Below are positions 33,918 through 39,875 of a stretch of DNA of 40,391 nucleotides, in pieces. This DNA comes from Nitrospira sp. (GTDB taxonomy: Bacteria > Nitrospirota > Nitrospiria > Nitrospirales > Nitrospiraceae). The number at the start of each line of letters is the position of its first letter. Positions within the stretch are counted from its first letter, which is position 1. The notes below the pieces were generated by a model, which was not told the DNA's origin, searched no databases, and saw nothing but the letters and a program-made list of their open reading frames with translations. The stretch spans positions 1-40,391 of the forward strand of contig JAMXAU010000004.1 of assembly GCA_024281365.1 (NCBI GenBank), written 5' to 3'. The position numbers and the translations under genes are program-made.

Positions 33918-34697
33918 GTGGTCGAAGACTCCAATTCGACCATGGGGGATCTTGCCGAGGTTTTGAAGCTGGATCCGGCCATCTCAGCGAGACTTCTTCG
34001 CATTCTCAACAGTCCCATCTATGGGTTTCCAAAACAGATTGATACGATTTCCCGTGCCGTCAGTCTGCTTGGAACGCAGGCGACCATCGACCTTGTGACA
34101 GCGACGACGATCGGCAAGACCTTTGCCGGAGTGCCGATTCAACTGATGGATGTGTCGAAGTTCTGGCATCGGAGTGTACTCTGCGCGTTGCTGGCCGGAA
34201 AGCTTGCGAAGTCCTGTGGGATTAAGGACAGTGAACGGTTTTTCGTGGAAGGCCTGCTGAGAGATCTTGGTCACTATGTCCTCTATCAATATGCACCGGA
34301 GCGGGCGCAGTCTGCACTCATCGAAGCGGGCTACCTCGGGTCCTCTCTGGCTGAAGTGGAACAGTCCAATATTGGGTGTGACTTTGCTGAGGTGGGGGCT
34401 GAACTCATCCACTCCTGGGGGATGCCCGTGCGGATTGAACAGGCTATCCGGCATCAACTTCGCCCGAACGAAGCCGGTGACTATGTTCAGCATGCGTCCA
34501 TTGTGCATCTGGCTGGAGAGGTCGTCGATTTTGAGGAGCGTGACCCGAAGTGGCGACTCGCCGAAGTGCCGTGTAGTCCGCAGGCCCTGGGGGCGACAGG
34601 CTTTGTGCTGGCCAACCTACCTGAACTGATGACGGATGCTCAGGCCCAGCTGAAGGAGACGCTTGCGCTGGTTTATCCGCAGGCCGTCGCCGCGTAA
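33918..34697 (+). CDS. HDOD-domain protein (paralogue 1, frameshifted at 5' end)
   Basis: The main intact reading frame, 259 residues from GTG 33918, belongs to the HDOD family, non-catalytic relatives of HD phosphohydrolases found in signalling. Seen: LDPAISARLLRILNSPIYGF, LLGTQATIDLVTATTIG, FWHRSVLCALLAGKLAKSCG and LRDLGHYVLYQYAPERAQSA. The GTG has only a weak ribosome binding site; the natural start appears to be 33841, lost by a frameshift, so this product would lack the first helix of the domain. The paralogue at 36823 shares long identical stretches, including LAEVEQSNIGCDFAEVGAEL. Confidence 0.8.
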   Translation: MVEDSNSTMGDLAEVLKLDPAISARLLRILNSPIYGFPKQIDTISRAVSLLGTQATIDLVTATTIGKTFAGVPIQLMDVSKFWHRSVLCALLAGKLAKSCGIKDSERFFVEGLLRDLGHYVLYQYAPERAQSALIEAGYLGSSLAEVEQSNIGCDFAEVGAELIHSWGMPVRIEQAIRHQLRPNEAGDYVQHASIVHLAGEVVDFEERDPKWRLAEVPCSPQALGATGFVLANLPELMTDAQAQLKETLALVYPQAVAA

Positions 34698-34849: not shown

Positions 34850-36625
34850 CTAGAGTATGCCGGCTAAACGATTCATTCCCAATGTCGTCTGAGCAAAAAA
34901 TAACTGAAAAGCCTGATAGTCCTGAGGTTGCATTGGCGGGCGGCCTGGTCCTCGATCACAGTAGACAAGGCCAATGGGTCTCACTCCCACTCGTAATGGG
35001 GCGAGGATTGCCGATGTAGGGTGCCAAACATCAAGAAATTCCTGTTTCATGGACCCAGTCGGCTGGTCTGAAAGATTTGGAACCAGGAGTGGCTCGACCC
35101 GTTTAAGAATCGAGAGGAAGAAGGAATGTTCTCGGCTGAGTGAACCAGAAAGAGAGGAGAGATAGGGTGCCAGAGGAGTGACGCCCAGCGCCAACTTTCC
35201 GATCAGAAGATCACTATCATTTGGATTGAGAAGTGTCAGCCCGACACGGCCCAATCCCGCGTCCCGCTGGAGCGATTGGATAAACATTCCAAGGAGGCTA
35301 TTCAGATCGATCGCACCTTGTAACGAGTTCTGGAAGACCTGAAGTGTTTCAAATGGGTTGTTCCGAATGGGGGCTGGGGGCTCATCCTGGTTGAGAGAAA
35401 TTTTCGCCGGGGCGGGTACATGGTCTTCACTGGGTATGCTGTTAGTCGAGGATTGTAGTGCAGGTGCCTCCGTGGCGTGGTGCCCGTTCAACGGCATCAG
35501 AGAGTTGTGAAGTGGATCGACCGCCAGTCCCATCGAACGGGTGAGCTGGCGGCCTCGGTCCATGGCTTGGTTCATCAAATCCGAAAACCGTCGTGAAGAT
35601 AGTCCGCTTCCGAGCTGAAGTGTCCGTTTCGTTTCCTCAACGGCCGTGGAGGAAGCGGAATGCGTGATCGCCTCCACAAGCCGGATTGAGCCAACCACCA
35701 GACCTCGGTACGTCTGTGGTGTGCTCTGCCAACGTCCGATCGGCAACTCTTCGACCGTGTCAAAGAGATCGATGAGATAGTCGGGTAGCTTCCACAGTCG
35801 AGCCAAGGCTTGGGTCAAGGTCAATCGGGGAACACCGATAAGCCTGGTTTCCTGACTGACACGGTCGGCTGGGTGCTTCGCTTTCCGGAAGGCTGACTGG
35901 AGTGCTTCAAAAAGATCCGGATCCTGGTAGGCAATGGCTAAATCTCCGATCGAGTACAGGAGCGCTGCGGTAAATAATTGACTCGGCTGCGGGTAGTTGA
36001 TTGCCGTTCCAAGCTCATTCGCGTAAGTGGCGGCGACAAGGGACTTGGCGATCAAGGTTCGGAGTTCTTGCTGGCGCGTCGGCCAATGGTGCAACTGCTC
36101 GACCAGATGTGCGGCGGCGACGAGAGCGCGAACGGTATCGAGTCCAAGCCAGCTCACGGCATGAGGGATGGCGCTGATCGTTTGCCGTGGGCTGTACGCG
36201 ATGCTGTTGGCGACTTGCAAGACTTTGCAGGTGAGCCCATGGTCTCGGCTGATCACTTGCGTCAGATTGTCGGGAGTGGACTGTGGGTCCGCATCATTCA
36301 GGATTTGCTGACAAGTGAATTGAAGGATCGGCAGGCACCGTCCGGACTCATCGAACAGAGGCTTCAGTTTTGGACGTAGTCGAGGACGGATTGAGTCGAT
36401 GAGGGTTGATTCCGTCGCCGAAGGCATAGGGGGTCCCCGATAGAAGCCAGAGACTGTATCGGTGAGAATCCCTTCCCGCTTGAGAAGTCGGTACTGAGAA
36501 GGGGCGATGAGCGGGACTCTGTAAGAAGGCACGTGGGATCGGGCAGTGGTCGGCAGGTTGGCCAACCGTAGGGGTGATAGTCTCCAGCAGTGCTTCAGTT
36601 GGCGATCTTCGTGTGGTCTCTCCAT
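34850..36625 (-). CDS. HDOD-domain protein with C-terminal GAF-like region
   Basis: A 591-residue protein from ATG 36625 (TTG 36664 is in frame but less likely). An N-terminal basic stretch is followed by an HDOD domain at about 95-310 (VISRDHGLTCKVLQVANSIA, HAVSWLGLDTVRALVAAAHL, FTAALLYSIGDLAIAYQDPD). A proline/serine-rich linker follows at about 375-430. The C-terminal part at about 435-590 (LNSLLGMFIQSLQRDAGLGR, ILAPLRVGVRPIGLVYCDRG) resembles a GAF sensor. It lies between the two short HDOD genes, convergent with the first and divergent from the second. Confidence 0.85.
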   Translation of the reverse strand: MERPHEDRQLKHCWRLSPLRLANLPTTARSHVPSYRVPLIAPSQYRLLKREGILTDTVSGFYRGPPMPSATESTLIDSIRPRLRPKLKPLFDESGRCLPILQFTCQQILNDADPQSTPDNLTQVISRDHGLTCKVLQVANSIAYSPRQTISAIPHAVSWLGLDTVRALVAAAHLVEQLHHWPTRQQELRTLIAKSLVAATYANELGTAINYPQPSQLFTAALLYSIGDLAIAYQDPDLFEALQSAFRKAKHPADRVSQETRLIGVPRLTLTQALARLWKLPDYLIDLFDTVEELPIGRWQSTPQTYRGLVVGSIRLVEAITHSASSTAVEETKRTLQLGSGLSSRRFSDLMNQAMDRGRQLTRSMGLAVDPLHNSLMPLNGHHATEAPALQSSTNSIPSEDHVPAPAKISLNQDEPPAPIRNNPFETLQVFQNSLQGAIDLNSLLGMFIQSLQRDAGLGRVGLTLLNPNDSDLLIGKLALGVTPLAPYLSSLSGSLSREHSFFLSILKRVEPLLVPNLSDQPTGSMKQEFLDVWHPTSAILAPLRVGVRPIGLVYCDRGPGRPPMQPQDYQAFQLFFAQTTLGMNRLAGIL

Positions 36626-36746
36626 ATCGTTCCCGTAGGAATCGTTGCATGCAAAGAATTGCAATCTGATGGTCGATTCAGCCCATCAGGACTAGAATTC
36701 AGTGTGATGACGGAACGCCATCAGGCTTGTCACCTGCCTCCACGAT

Positions 36747-36822: not shown

Positions 36823-37680
36823 ATGCCATTGGCGAGTGAATTGGTCCAAGCGTGCACCACGGTGTCGACATTATCCGAAGTGTATTGTCGTGTGCGGGAT
36901 GTGGTGGACGATCCCAACGCAACTATGGGAGATCGAGTCAAGGCTCTTCAGCTCGATCCGGTGATCGCAGCCAGGCTGCTTCGCATGGCCAACAACTCAC
37001 CCTATGGACCGTCGAGGCAGGTCGACACCGTGACCGGCGCAGTCCAACTCCTTGGGAAGCAAGTCATCAACGATTTCGTCGCGACGACGACCGTCGGTCA
37101 AACCTTCGCGGGGATGCCGGTTCATCTGATGGATCTATCCAAGTTTTGGAAGAAAAGTCTTTTTTGCGGACTGTTGGCTCGAGCAATCGCGAAGTCTTGT
37201 GGTGTCGATGACCAGGAACAGTCGTATCTGGCAGGCCTCTTGCGCGATATCGGTCACTGTGTCTTGTACCAGACTGTTCCACAGCGGGCCCAGTCGGCAC
37301 TGATTGAAGCGGGGTATCTGGAAGCGTCCCTGGCCGAAGTGGAGCAGTCCAATATCGGCTGTGACTTTGCGGAAGTCGGAGCGGAACTTCTCCGATCCTG
37401 GGGCTTGCCTGTACAGATCGAACAGGCGGTCCGTTGCCAACTGAGTCCGAAAGATGCCGGTGAATTCATCGTGTTGGCATCTATCGTCCATCTGGCCGGT
37501 GTTATTGCCGATTACGAGGAACTCGATTCCAGTCGGCGCCCTGCAACTGCGCCGTTCAGCCCCCAGGCCATCGCTGCCACAGGGTTTGTGCCGGCCAATC
37601 TCCCAACACACCTTGCGGAAGCCCGAGCCCAGCTGCAAGAGGCTCTGGCAATTGTGCAGCCCTACACGATGGCTGCATAG
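36823..37680 (+). CDS. HDOD-domain protein (paralogue 2, intact)
   Basis: A 285-residue HDOD protein, starting MPLASELVQACTTVSTLSEV after a strong AAGGAGGGG. The HDOD domain runs from about residue 15 to 215 (ALQLDPVIAARLLRMANNSP, AVQLLGKQVINDFVATTTVG, LARAIAKSCGVDDQEQSYLA, LLRDIGHCVLYQTVPQRAQS). The position of the catalytic HD pair is occupied by RD, fitting a non-catalytic role. A C-terminal helical tail follows. Such proteins act in signal transduction, often linked to c-di-GMP or chemotaxis; the partner is unknown. Confidence 0.9.
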   Translation: MPLASELVQACTTVSTLSEVYCRVRDVVDDPNATMGDRVKALQLDPVIAARLLRMANNSPYGPSRQVDTVTGAVQLLGKQVINDFVATTTVGQTFAGMPVHLMDLSKFWKKSLFCGLLARAIAKSCGVDDQEQSYLAGLLRDIGHCVLYQTVPQRAQSALIEAGYLEASLAEVEQSNIGCDFAEVGAELLRSWGLPVQIEQAVRCQLSPKDAGEFIVLASIVHLAGVIADYEELDSSRRPATAPFSPQAIAATGFVPANLPTHLAEARAQLQEALAIVQPYTMAA

Positions 37681-37724: not shown

Positions 37725-38342
37725 CTATTCCACGGAGTGGCCTTCCAGGAAGACGGATTGCTCCAGCGTGCGAAAGAATTGCTGGTAGGGCGCGGGATCC
37801 TCGACGGCACGGAGGTAAAACTGGGCGCTGGCTCGCACCACAAGTTGCGCCTCGTTGCGCTTGCGGACGGTGACGGTCAAGCGGACAAGATTACTCCGGT
37901 GAGTAAACGGACCCCATGTCCGGTCGTGACGGTTGAGAACCAGTAATGTGTCTGGTTGATACAGCAGGTAGCTCAAATCGAGGCCATAGATCTGCTCATT
38001 CTCGACATACTTCTTCCCGGAGACGAGCCCCAGCTCTTCATCGAGTACTTCCACTTTGAAATCCAAGTCCTGCAGGGTGGACACGATCGTCGCCAGCATC
38101 TTGCGCCGATCCGCGGTATCGAACACACGCGATTGAGCCGTGCGAATCTTCACTTGGCTTTCTTCGGAGAGCCAGATTTGCTCACGGGAATCCCATTGGC
38201 TGACATGCCGTAGCTCGTAGGGTGTTGGGCATCCCTGCAACAACAGGCAGAAGCCGACGAGGAGCCAGCGGTTCAGCCACCCAGCTCCTACGGGAAGCCG
38301 GGTGAATTGGGCAAGCATCCTTTGGTGAGAGACCAGGTTCAT
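37725..38342 (-). CDS. Lipoprotein C of a three-paralogue set
   Basis: A 205-residue protein from ATG 38342, whose start overlaps the stop of the preceding gene by one base; ATG 38318 is an alternative. A signal peptide of lipoprotein type ends LLVGFCLLLQGC. The mature part shares a scaffold with the two upstream genes: QVKIRTAQSRVFDTADRRKM, then LQDLDFKVEV and EELGLVSGKKY. After a central insert (GLDLSYLLYQPDTLLVLNRH), VRLTVTVRKRNEAQLVVRAS is followed by DPAPYQQFFRTLEQSVFLEG. I recognise no named family. Probably an envelope lipoprotein of unknown function. Confidence 0.8.
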   Translation of the reverse strand: MNLVSHQRMLAQFTRLPVGAGWLNRWLLVGFCLLLQGCPTPYELRHVSQWDSREQIWLSEESQVKIRTAQSRVFDTADRRKMLATIVSTLQDLDFKVEVLDEELGLVSGKKYVENEQIYGLDLSYLLYQPDTLLVLNRHDRTWGPFTHRSNLVRLTVTVRKRNEAQLVVRASAQFYLRAVEDPAPYQQFFRTLEQSVFLEGHSVE

Positions 38343-38776
38343 CAATTCTTGTTGACAAAGAGAGCGCGTTCCAGTGTGGCAAAGAAGTTTTGGTAGACCT
38401 TGGGATCTTCGATAGGCTTGTTGTTGTAGATGGCGTTGGCGCGAATCATCATGCGGCCCTCGGCTTCCGAGCGCACCGTGACAGTCACACCGACGACATC
38501 ATAGAAGTTCGGCTCGGCGAACCGTGCTGCCGTCACCAGCCCCAAGGGCTCATTAGCTCGCTCGATGATGAAACCTAAGTCCTGCAGCGCTGCAATGACG
38601 CCACGCATGGCTAGTTGGCGATCCTTGAGGTCGAAGGATCGAGTTTGTGCGCTCCGAATCTTCATCTGCGCCTCAGTCGGGACCAACAGGTCCGGGCTGG
38701 GCTGCGGCGCGGCGCAGCCTTGCATGATGACAAGGACGACGACCGCGATGATTCCTCCCACGTTCTCCAGCTTCAT
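38342..38776 (-). CDS. Lipoprotein B of a three-paralogue set
   Basis: A 144-residue protein. The start is ATG 38776, with GAGG five bases upstream; ATG 38779 is adjacent and in frame. Lipoprotein signal ends VVVLVIMQGC. It is the shortest version of the shared scaffold: AQMKIRSAQTRSFDLKDRQL, VIAALQDLGFIIERANEPLG, GVTVTVRSEAEGRMMIRANA and DPKVYQNFFATLERALFVNK. It overlaps lipoprotein C and lies 13 bases after lipoprotein A. Function unknown. Confidence 0.82.
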   Translation of the reverse strand: MKLENVGGIIAVVVLVIMQGCAAPQPSPDLLVPTEAQMKIRSAQTRSFDLKDRQLAMRGVIAALQDLGFIIERANEPLGLVTAARFAEPNFYDVVGVTVTVRSEAEGRMMIRANAIYNNKPIEDPKVYQNFFATLERALFVNKN

Positions 38777-38789
38777 CATCACCTCGTGC

Positions 38790-39428
38790 TCAGAGGGCGA
38801 ATGGTTCCAGAAACACAGCCTTTGACAATTTCGCAAAGAAGGTCTGGTATATGGCTGGGTCGCGCAGCATCTCCATCCGTTGTTCGCCCGGTGGAATGCC
38901 TTGGCGGCCAGCCGACCCCTCCCCCTTCCACACAACCCGGTAGAACACGACCCTGACTTCCTGACGTGTGACGTCTGGACTCACTGGCCTGGTGACCAGC
39001 GTGGCGGCGATTTTTTGATGCAGGTCCACCGGCATCACGATCGGAGGCTGTTGGACCAGCACCAGCGGGGTGCTCAGGAGAAAGACGAAAAAACGAGCGA
39101 GGTCCTGGCCGTATTCCCGAGCGCTTCGTTCTTTCGTTGCTCTCAAAAATCCAACTTCGCGCACGCTTTCTTCGACCTGGAAACCAAGATCCTGCAGGAC
39201 AGCGGCGGAGGCGGAGAGTAACTCCGTTCCATCCTTAGTTTCGAAGAGGCGGGTTTGCATGGCACGATTGGCGGCGCTCTCCGGCCTCAGCTGAAATAAT
39301 TCATCAGGCTGTGTGTGCGCGACACATCCGATGAACGGGCTCGCTATGGCAAGGCACGCCACGGCCAGAAGCGCTCTCCGAACTTCGGAACCGTTGTTCC
39401 TGTTAGAACTGCGTAGCGTTGTACGCAA
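38790..39428 (-). CDS. Lipoprotein A of a three-paralogue set
   Basis: A 212-residue protein if it starts at TTG 39428, which has AGAAGG nine bases upstream; ATG 39455 is in frame but lacks a ribosome binding site, so the start is uncertain. The signal region is VRRALLAVACLAIASPFIGC. The scaffold is shared with B and C: RAMQTRLFETKDGTELLSAS, AVLQDLGFQVEESVREVGFL and, at the end, DPAIYQTFFAKLSKAVFLEP. A hydrophobic insert (FFVFLLSTPLVLVQQPPIVM) takes the place of the insert in C. It overlaps the BamE-like gene. Confidence 0.8.
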   Translation of the reverse strand: MRTTLRSSNRNNGSEVRRALLAVACLAIASPFIGCVAHTQPDELFQLRPESAANRAMQTRLFETKDGTELLSASAAVLQDLGFQVEESVREVGFLRATKERSAREYGQDLARFFVFLLSTPLVLVQQPPIVMPVDLHQKIAATLVTRPVSPDVTRQEVRVVFYRVVWKGEGSAGRQGIPPGEQRMEMLRDPAIYQTFFAKLSKAVFLEPFAL

Positions 39429-39795
39429 AGTCGCGGACCTTCTTCTCTTCGTCATACTTGATGATGATCGTGAGCGTCCGTTGGCGCTGTGAGCTGGAAC
39501 TGTCGCGGGATGCTGCACCGAGAATGATAATACCCGCGAAGGATGAGCTGGACGTATCCACGCGATCGGTCGACACCTTGTCATAGATCCAGACCTCGCG
39601 GCGTTTGTCGTCGGTGGTCACAATATTGGGGCTTCCCAGGAGTTCGGCCACCTGGGCGGCGGACATGCCGACTTTGATTTCTCCTTGCACCTTACCGACG
39701 GTCAGGCGGTCTTCCTTGATTTCAGCACGGTTGCCGGCGCAGCCTGCTGCGACGAGGCACAGGCACAGACACAATGCGTTCCATCGAGAGATCAT
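39403..39795 (-). CDS. BamE/SmpA-like lipoprotein
   Basis: A 130-residue lipoprotein from ATG 39795 (AAAGGA upstream; ATG 39813 is in frame). The signal ends CLCLCLVAAGC. The mature domain has GKVQGEIKVGMSAAQVAELL and GSPNIVTTDDKRREVWIYDK, the pattern of the SmpA/OmlA (BamE-type) fold: a GMS-type helix followed by an LGSP turn and a W-Y strand. The middle holds a serine-rich loop. Family membership is likely; that it is the true BamE of the Bam complex is not shown. First gene of the operon. Confidence 0.82.
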   Translation of the reverse strand: MISRWNALCLCLCLVAAGCAGNRAEIKEDRLTVGKVQGEIKVGMSAAQVAELLGSPNIVTTDDKRREVWIYDKVSTDRVDTSSSSFAGIIILGAASRDSSSSQRQRTLTIIIKYDEEKKVRDFAYNATQF

Positions 39796-39846
39796 CGTGG
39801 GTTTCCTTTCCATTCACAAGTTCGGTTCGGGGTATGACATGGGGAT

Positions 39847-39875
39847 AGGCTACTGCCCATGAGGGGGTCTGTCAA
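39847..39875 (-). promoter_or_regulatory. Sigma-70 promoter for the lipoprotein operon
   Basis: On the minus strand TTGACA (plus 39870-39875) and TAGCCT (plus 39847-39852) are 17 bases apart. The -35 is perfect and the -10 partial. It lies about 50 bases upstream of the BamE-like start. Confidence 0.6.

Follow-up and report, generated by a model that had tools for sequence, protein, structure and literature searches.

A widespread, apparently undescribed lipoprotein gene module of Nitrospira and other diderm bacteria, built from known folds

The gene cluster in Nitrospira sp.

The window analysed here is a stretch of 40,391 nt of Nitrospira sp. contig JAMXAU010000004.1, to which all coordinates refer. 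It contains a set of four genes on the minus strand at 37725-39795, named E, A, B and C in reading order. The features are as follows.

39870..39875, minus strand: TTGACA hexamer, read in the sequence; a promoter function is not supported by a consensus scan
39403..39795, minus strand: E, BamE-domain lipoprotein of 130 aa (PF04355 match; model against BamE, Z 9.8)
38790..39428, minus strand: A, lipoprotein of an uncatalogued, predicted helix-grip family, 'position 1' clade (homology; tree support 100/99)
38342..38779, minus strand: B, minimal family member of 145 aa with one predicted helix-grip domain, 'position 2' type (model pLDDT 90.5; tree)
37725..38342, minus strand: C, second 'position 2' type lipoprotein with a mid-protein insert, in a separate Nitrospiraceae clade (homology; tree)

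The initial annotation had described four overlapping or nearly touching minus-strand genes, all of them with lipoprotein signal peptides, and both statements hold. E and A overlap by 26 bases (A has no ATG and likely starts at the TTG at 39428), A and B are separated by 10 bases, and B and C overlap by 1 base (TGATG). Judging from this spacing, the four genes likely share one transcript. The end of a glycerophosphodiester phosphodiesterase gene lies on the 5′ side and HDOD-domain genes lie on the 3′ side, the nearest of them on the opposite strand; hence E-A-B-C is a closed unit. A single TTGACA promoter had also been proposed. The hexamer does exist at 39875-39870, but the consensus scan for sigma-70-like promoter pairs returned 0 against 1.2 expected in shuffles, and a single TTGACA promoter for the set is therefore unsupported. 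As regards the neighbourhood, three HDOD genes are located beside the module at 33918-34697 (plus), 34850-36664 (minus) and 36823-37680 (plus); the two plus-strand copies look like close paralogues, and the middle gene has a GAF domain.

In all four products a lipobox-like (G)C ends the hydrophobic N-terminus (E, VAAG/C; A, FIG/C; B, MQG/C; C, LQG/C), and none of them has Asp at position +2. Asp was likewise found at +2 in 0 of about 265 detected lipoboxes, so that sorting of the products to the outer membrane is expected under the E. coli rule. The 144 of 217 sequences recognised by a strict lipobox script are a lower bound: the script missed A and C of Nitrospira sp., in which the lipoboxes are plain by eye.

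Families and predicted folds of the four lipoproteins

The earlier assignment of E as BamE-like is borne out by its sequence and by its model. E matches PF04355 (BamE, SmpA) with 25.8 bits, above the curated cut-off of 23.2 bits; 63 of 65 E-family members match the same family at 0.001, and the E-family profile retrieves solved BamE structures (best 1.3e-4). An AlphaFold2 model of E (pLDDT 73.5 overall, above 90 in the core) has an alpha-alpha-beta-beta-beta fold and aligns with BamE 5d0o_E at Z 9.8 (75 residues, 3.0 Å, 21% identity), with OsmE 4dm5 at Z 8.9 and with BtiO, a T6SS immunity protein of Bacteroides, at Z 8.7. Like BamE, E is a lipoprotein, and the two are similar in size. However, the Pfam match spans the core of E only, no clear similarity to E. 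coli BamE was seen beyond the core motif, and E does not reach the level of a canonical BamE equivalog (NCBIfam PRK11548, 12.2 bits against a cut-off of 93). Further differences are a fixed pairing with an A/B/C lipoprotein, a coexistence with true BamE in gammaproteobacteria (see below), and a hydrophobic loop, rich in Ser and Gly, that joins strands 2 and 3; this segment comprises 32-56 residues in E proteins, with a short hydrophobic run in 104 of 115. OsmE, also an optional lipoprotein, has the same fold, but E is far below the cut-off of the NCBIfam OsmE model (14.9 bits against 65), and no pairing of OsmE with a helix-grip lipoprotein is known. E also matches the phage family PHROG 3135 at 4.8e-10. 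Phages may carry a BamE-like lipoprotein, although a tblastn search with a gammaproteobacterial relative of E found no match in 50,697 phage records; on the latter result, a phage origin of the module was rejected.

A, B and C are homologous and belong to one family that is absent from Pfam and NCBIfam. The common scaffold noted earlier by eye is evident in a three-way alignment with 25 invariant columns, A being 28% identical to B and 28% to C. A search of the Nitrospira sp. genome with B retrieves C at E = 8e-10 and A at 4e-5, and profile-profile alignment of the A-type, B-type and single-partner families yields 99.7-99.9% probability. None of the three proteins matched a Pfam or NCBIfam family. 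Scanning 93 relatives singly gave no consistent family in these databases, only stray matches (TIM21, nitrile hydratase and others), which were rejected since each concerned one family member. PF06804 (BamC) is absent from A, B, C and all 93 relatives. When PDB sequences were searched with a profile of the family, retroviral RNase H was matched (best E 0.004); this was dismissed as chance, as the match covers a partial span and has no lipoprotein context. The three proteins are thus neither unrelated to one another nor members of one well-described family.

While the initial annotation had not recognised this family, and Pfam and NCBIfam indeed hold no entry for it, its fold is recognisable as a predicted helix-grip fold of the BamC type. 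The fold was modelled for B only (AlphaFold2), and A and C are assigned to it by homology. In the B model (pLDDT 90.5), a strand, a helix, four strands and a long C-terminal helix form a single domain that fills the 124-residue mature protein. The twelve best Foldseek matches of this model in the PDB are all E. coli BamC (E 5.8e-7 to 5.6e-5; top probability 1.00). In VIA-align comparisons the BamC N-domain (Z 9.8, 101 residues, 3.5 Å) is tied by Z with Flpp3 of Francisella (Z 10.7, the highest value; 93 residues, 2.7 Å) and KA1 domains (Z 10.4), which argues that the helix-grip fold is not BamC's alone. Flpp3 is a helix-grip lipoprotein too, related to B by fold only (6-8% identity in the alignments).

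Alignment of A/B/C profiles with 35 BamC sequences by hhalign gave P values of 0.002-0.06 and probabilities of at most 14%, partly in register with the domain; in the same comparison, the N- and C-domains of BamC found each other at 85% probability. As this profile-profile kinship is weak and the fold is common, we claim for A, B and C a predicted BamC-type fold, but not membership in BamC, to which sequence kinship is not established. BamC (NlpB, PF06804) resembles these proteins as an outer-membrane lipoprotein with a helix-grip domain. It differs in having two such domains, where B has one, and in its long N-terminal lasso that binds BamD, in place of which the A/B/C family has a linker of about 20 residues between the lipidated Cys and the domain (median 21 residues and at most 31 among proteins with a detected lipobox). 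The family moreover lacks PF06804, extends far beyond beta- and gammaproteobacteria, and coexists with true BamC.

Distribution, linkage and history of the module

E was used as the only query in a scan of 84,980 genomes, which returned at least 563 relatives. Among the 80 best loci, drawn from more than 10 phyla, a gene of the A/B/C family adjoins E in all 80. Most have the layout E-Lip, 17 have E-Lip-Lip, and five have Lip-E (L089, L126, L134, L137, L145). Linkage of E with a lipoprotein of this family is near-obligate across phyla, and E plus one lipoprotein is the core unit of the module. Organism names for these 80 loci come from single contigs, mostly metagenomic, and may sometimes be wrong; L096, labelled Bradyrhizobiaceae, has an ignavibacterial neighbourhood, for instance.

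In 198 genomes of Nitrospirota, E was found in 36 and the B-type lipoprotein in 35, with 35 genomes common to both. Conservation of the four-gene order E-A-B-C in this phylum had been named as a check. The order is kept in the Nitrospiraceae (27 of 27 loci read), whereas loci outside this family consist of E followed by one lipoprotein. Within the genus Nitrospira the module occurs patchily, in 12 of 20 genomes. Patchiness even within a genus suggests that its job is dispensable. A decayed copy was also observed (G014, L053:5330-6253), in which an in-frame TAG interrupts E and the lipoprotein gene is frameshifted.

Among 185 gammaproteobacterial genomes, a strong E was found in six and the lipoprotein in eight, and the lipoprotein adjoins E in six of six. 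Tandem pairs of A/B/C-family genes with no detectable E are present in two gammaproteobacterial MAGs (G324, L178:894-1894; G294, L177:1331-2338). Plasmid-borne copies, annotated as hypothetical or unannotated, were found in Azospirillum brasilense (E-A-B on a megaplasmid), in Vibrio and on an 8-kb plasmid of Acinetobacter baumannii. The latter (CP061710.1, L160:4892-6277), from a paper mill, has E-A-B beside a RelE/ParE toxin-antitoxin pair, with all three genes annotated as hypothetical.

A tree of 83 lipoprotein sequences separates single partners (90/85), first-position proteins together with Nitrospiraceae A (100/99), and second-position proteins together with Nitrospiraceae B and C (95/88). 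The labels change five times on this tree, as few as possible. Since A and B fall in position-specific clades that recur across many phyla, their split predates Nitrospirota, and C of the Nitrospiraceae is an extra copy of the B type. Of the proposed tandem duplication with subsequent divergence, the homology of the three genes stands, but the event was not local: many phyla have genes of the A and B clades, arranged in the same order. The tree of E tracks the type of partner (3 changes against 17 in shuffles), and in it the forms with two or three lipoproteins do not make up one clade (AU p 0.04).

Neighbour clustering and a Pfam scan revealed no constant third partner of the E-lipoprotein pair outside Ignavibacteria and Kapabacteria, and none of the bam, lol or lpt genes is a constant neighbour. 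In these two groups an outer-membrane beta-barrel gene (PF13505) directly precedes the pair at 15 loci. E might be a helper by which BAM threads or docks A, B and C into a beta-barrel, comparable to the role of BamE for RcsF in porins or to the plugging of LptD by LptE; A, B and C would then be clients or surface-exposed effectors. BamE coordinates BamA and BamD in the assembly of RcsF/OMP complexes and is specifically needed for them (PMC6529637). We nevertheless consider such a role unlikely, as other lineages have no linked barrel gene, and the linkage may reflect only the synteny of close relatives, given that several other neighbours are common to the same loci. At Ignavibacteria/Kapabacteria loci an ankyrin-repeat gene is also seen after the pair, with barrel, pair and ankyrin gene on the same strand and nearly touching (L096, L102, L104, L106, L109, L116, L117, L119, L130, L132, L138, L144 and others).

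BamE-like immunity proteins directed against envelope-targeting polymorphic toxins have been described (PMC12419801); they have a membrane-anchored BamE-like fold, as E does. If E, A, B and C were immunity or inhibitor proteins of this kind, the presence of BtiO among the top matches of the E model, the PHROG 3135 match and the small Acinetobacter plasmid with E-A-B would find an explanation. Tandem duplication of lipoproteins is typical of polymorphic-toxin immunity loci. However, such immunity proteins evolve fast and are linked to toxins, while conservation within the four-gene set is highest for E (median 83% against 65-74%), which retains its motifs GSPNIVT and WxYDK across phyla. No recurring toxin family is among the 25 commonest neighbour families of the module (a further 55 are rarer), and a fixed pairing of E with a lipoprotein is not expected of immunity genes. 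An immunity function thus appears highly improbable. PADLOC gave no match for the module, and a role as a defence system was rejected on that basis.

Proposed role in the outer membrane

BamC, the least understood of the BAM lipoproteins, has been reported only in beta- and gammaproteobacteria, and the published origin of BamB, BamC and BamE lies within the proteobacteria (PMC3359395, PMC13067283). A stabilising effect on BamA-BamD is attributed to BamC and BamE, and in some reports BamC touches BamE and POTRA-1 (PMC13067283). All six gamma- and betaproteobacterial carriers of the module that were tested have canonical BamE and BamC elsewhere in the genome. As these carriers retain both, the module is additional to them. 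The Nitrospira sp. genome encodes a BamD homologue. As for a second BamE, which the initial annotation had considered, no further BamE domain was found in this genome (76.5% complete); elsewhere in the genus, an additional BamE-like gene occurs in a few genomes.

We hypothesize that the module encodes a set of outer-membrane lipoproteins which most likely form one complex facing the periplasm. E would contribute a BamE-type domain, and in each of A, B and C a short linker would tether a single BamC-type helix-grip domain to the lipid anchor. The products would bind one another, arrive at the outer membrane and take part in the assembly of barrels or lipoproteins, the target of the complex being either the barrel assembly machinery or one specific client in the outer membrane. 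Tentatively, our first choice is that it functions as BamC and BamE do as accessory subunits, and that it serves BAM or one particular client, either a barrel or a lipoprotein. In favour of this we count the BamE domain of E by Pfam and fold, BamC as top Foldseek match of the B model, the linkage of E and lipoprotein, the E tree that follows the partner type, the lack of Asp at +2, and the BamD homologue. Against it we count the common nature of the helix-grip fold, the weak profile similarity to BamC, the lack of a lasso and of a second domain, the dissimilarity of E and BamE beyond the core, the lack of a constant bam, lol or lpt neighbour, the patchiness, and the lipoproteins without E in two MAGs. 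With lasso and second domain absent from A, B and C, docking would have to differ from that in E. coli.

Lipids or hydrophobic ligands are often bound by helix-grip domains such as those of the KA1 and Bet v 1 folds. It is nearly as likely that the module has these folds in common with BamC and BamE but does another job: an outer-membrane lipoprotein complex off BAM, for instance one whose helix-grip domain binds a lipid or other hydrophobic ligand and which, like OsmE rather than BamE, helps to maintain the envelope or to resist stress. The B model is matched by KA1 and Bet v 1 folds at Z 8-10, OsmE and BamE are tied as matches of the E model, and deltaproteobacterial 'BamE' matches were scored OsmE-like in 2012 (PMC3359395). 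Canonical BamC and BamE are kept alongside in gammaproteobacteria, and the module is optional and found in unrelated neighbourhoods. However, Foldseek places BamC first by E-value, and BamC and BamE folds together in one gene pair would then be a coincidence.

The earlier view of the locus as a candidate for an undescribed system has held so far: open-licence literature yielded no description of such a gene pair of BamE-fold and helix-grip lipoproteins, and the lipoprotein family is uncatalogued. The module is real and widespread, apparently undescribed, and built from known folds. With somewhat less than even odds, it may represent a second, optional outer-membrane lipoprotein machine in which one subunit of BamE fold is combined with one to three of BamC fold. 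Such a machine would occur in more than 10 diderm phyla, would be mobile by way of plasmids, and would either run parallel to canonical BamC/BamE or be independent of them. Coupling of a BamE fold with a predicted BamC-type fold across more than 10 phyla points to an older origin of the pairing or to its reinvention, and the helix-grip lipoprotein family may serve as an outgroup for dating the origin of BamC. An uncatalogued lipoprotein family thereby gains a testable role, and the module, being compact, optional and sometimes plasmid-borne, offers, through deletion or transplantation, a probe of BamC- and BamE-type domains outside the E. coli machine.

Nitrospiraceae also have a second, different family of BamC-like lipoproteins. 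A small lipoprotein with weak DUF3576 and BamC (PF06804) matches is encoded near 16063-16248 of contig C207 of the same Nitrospira sp. genome (L155:1381-1836). Its gene directly follows one for a porin-like outer-membrane protein and precedes a gene for a secreted protein, and the same trio is present in a second genome (G149, L154).
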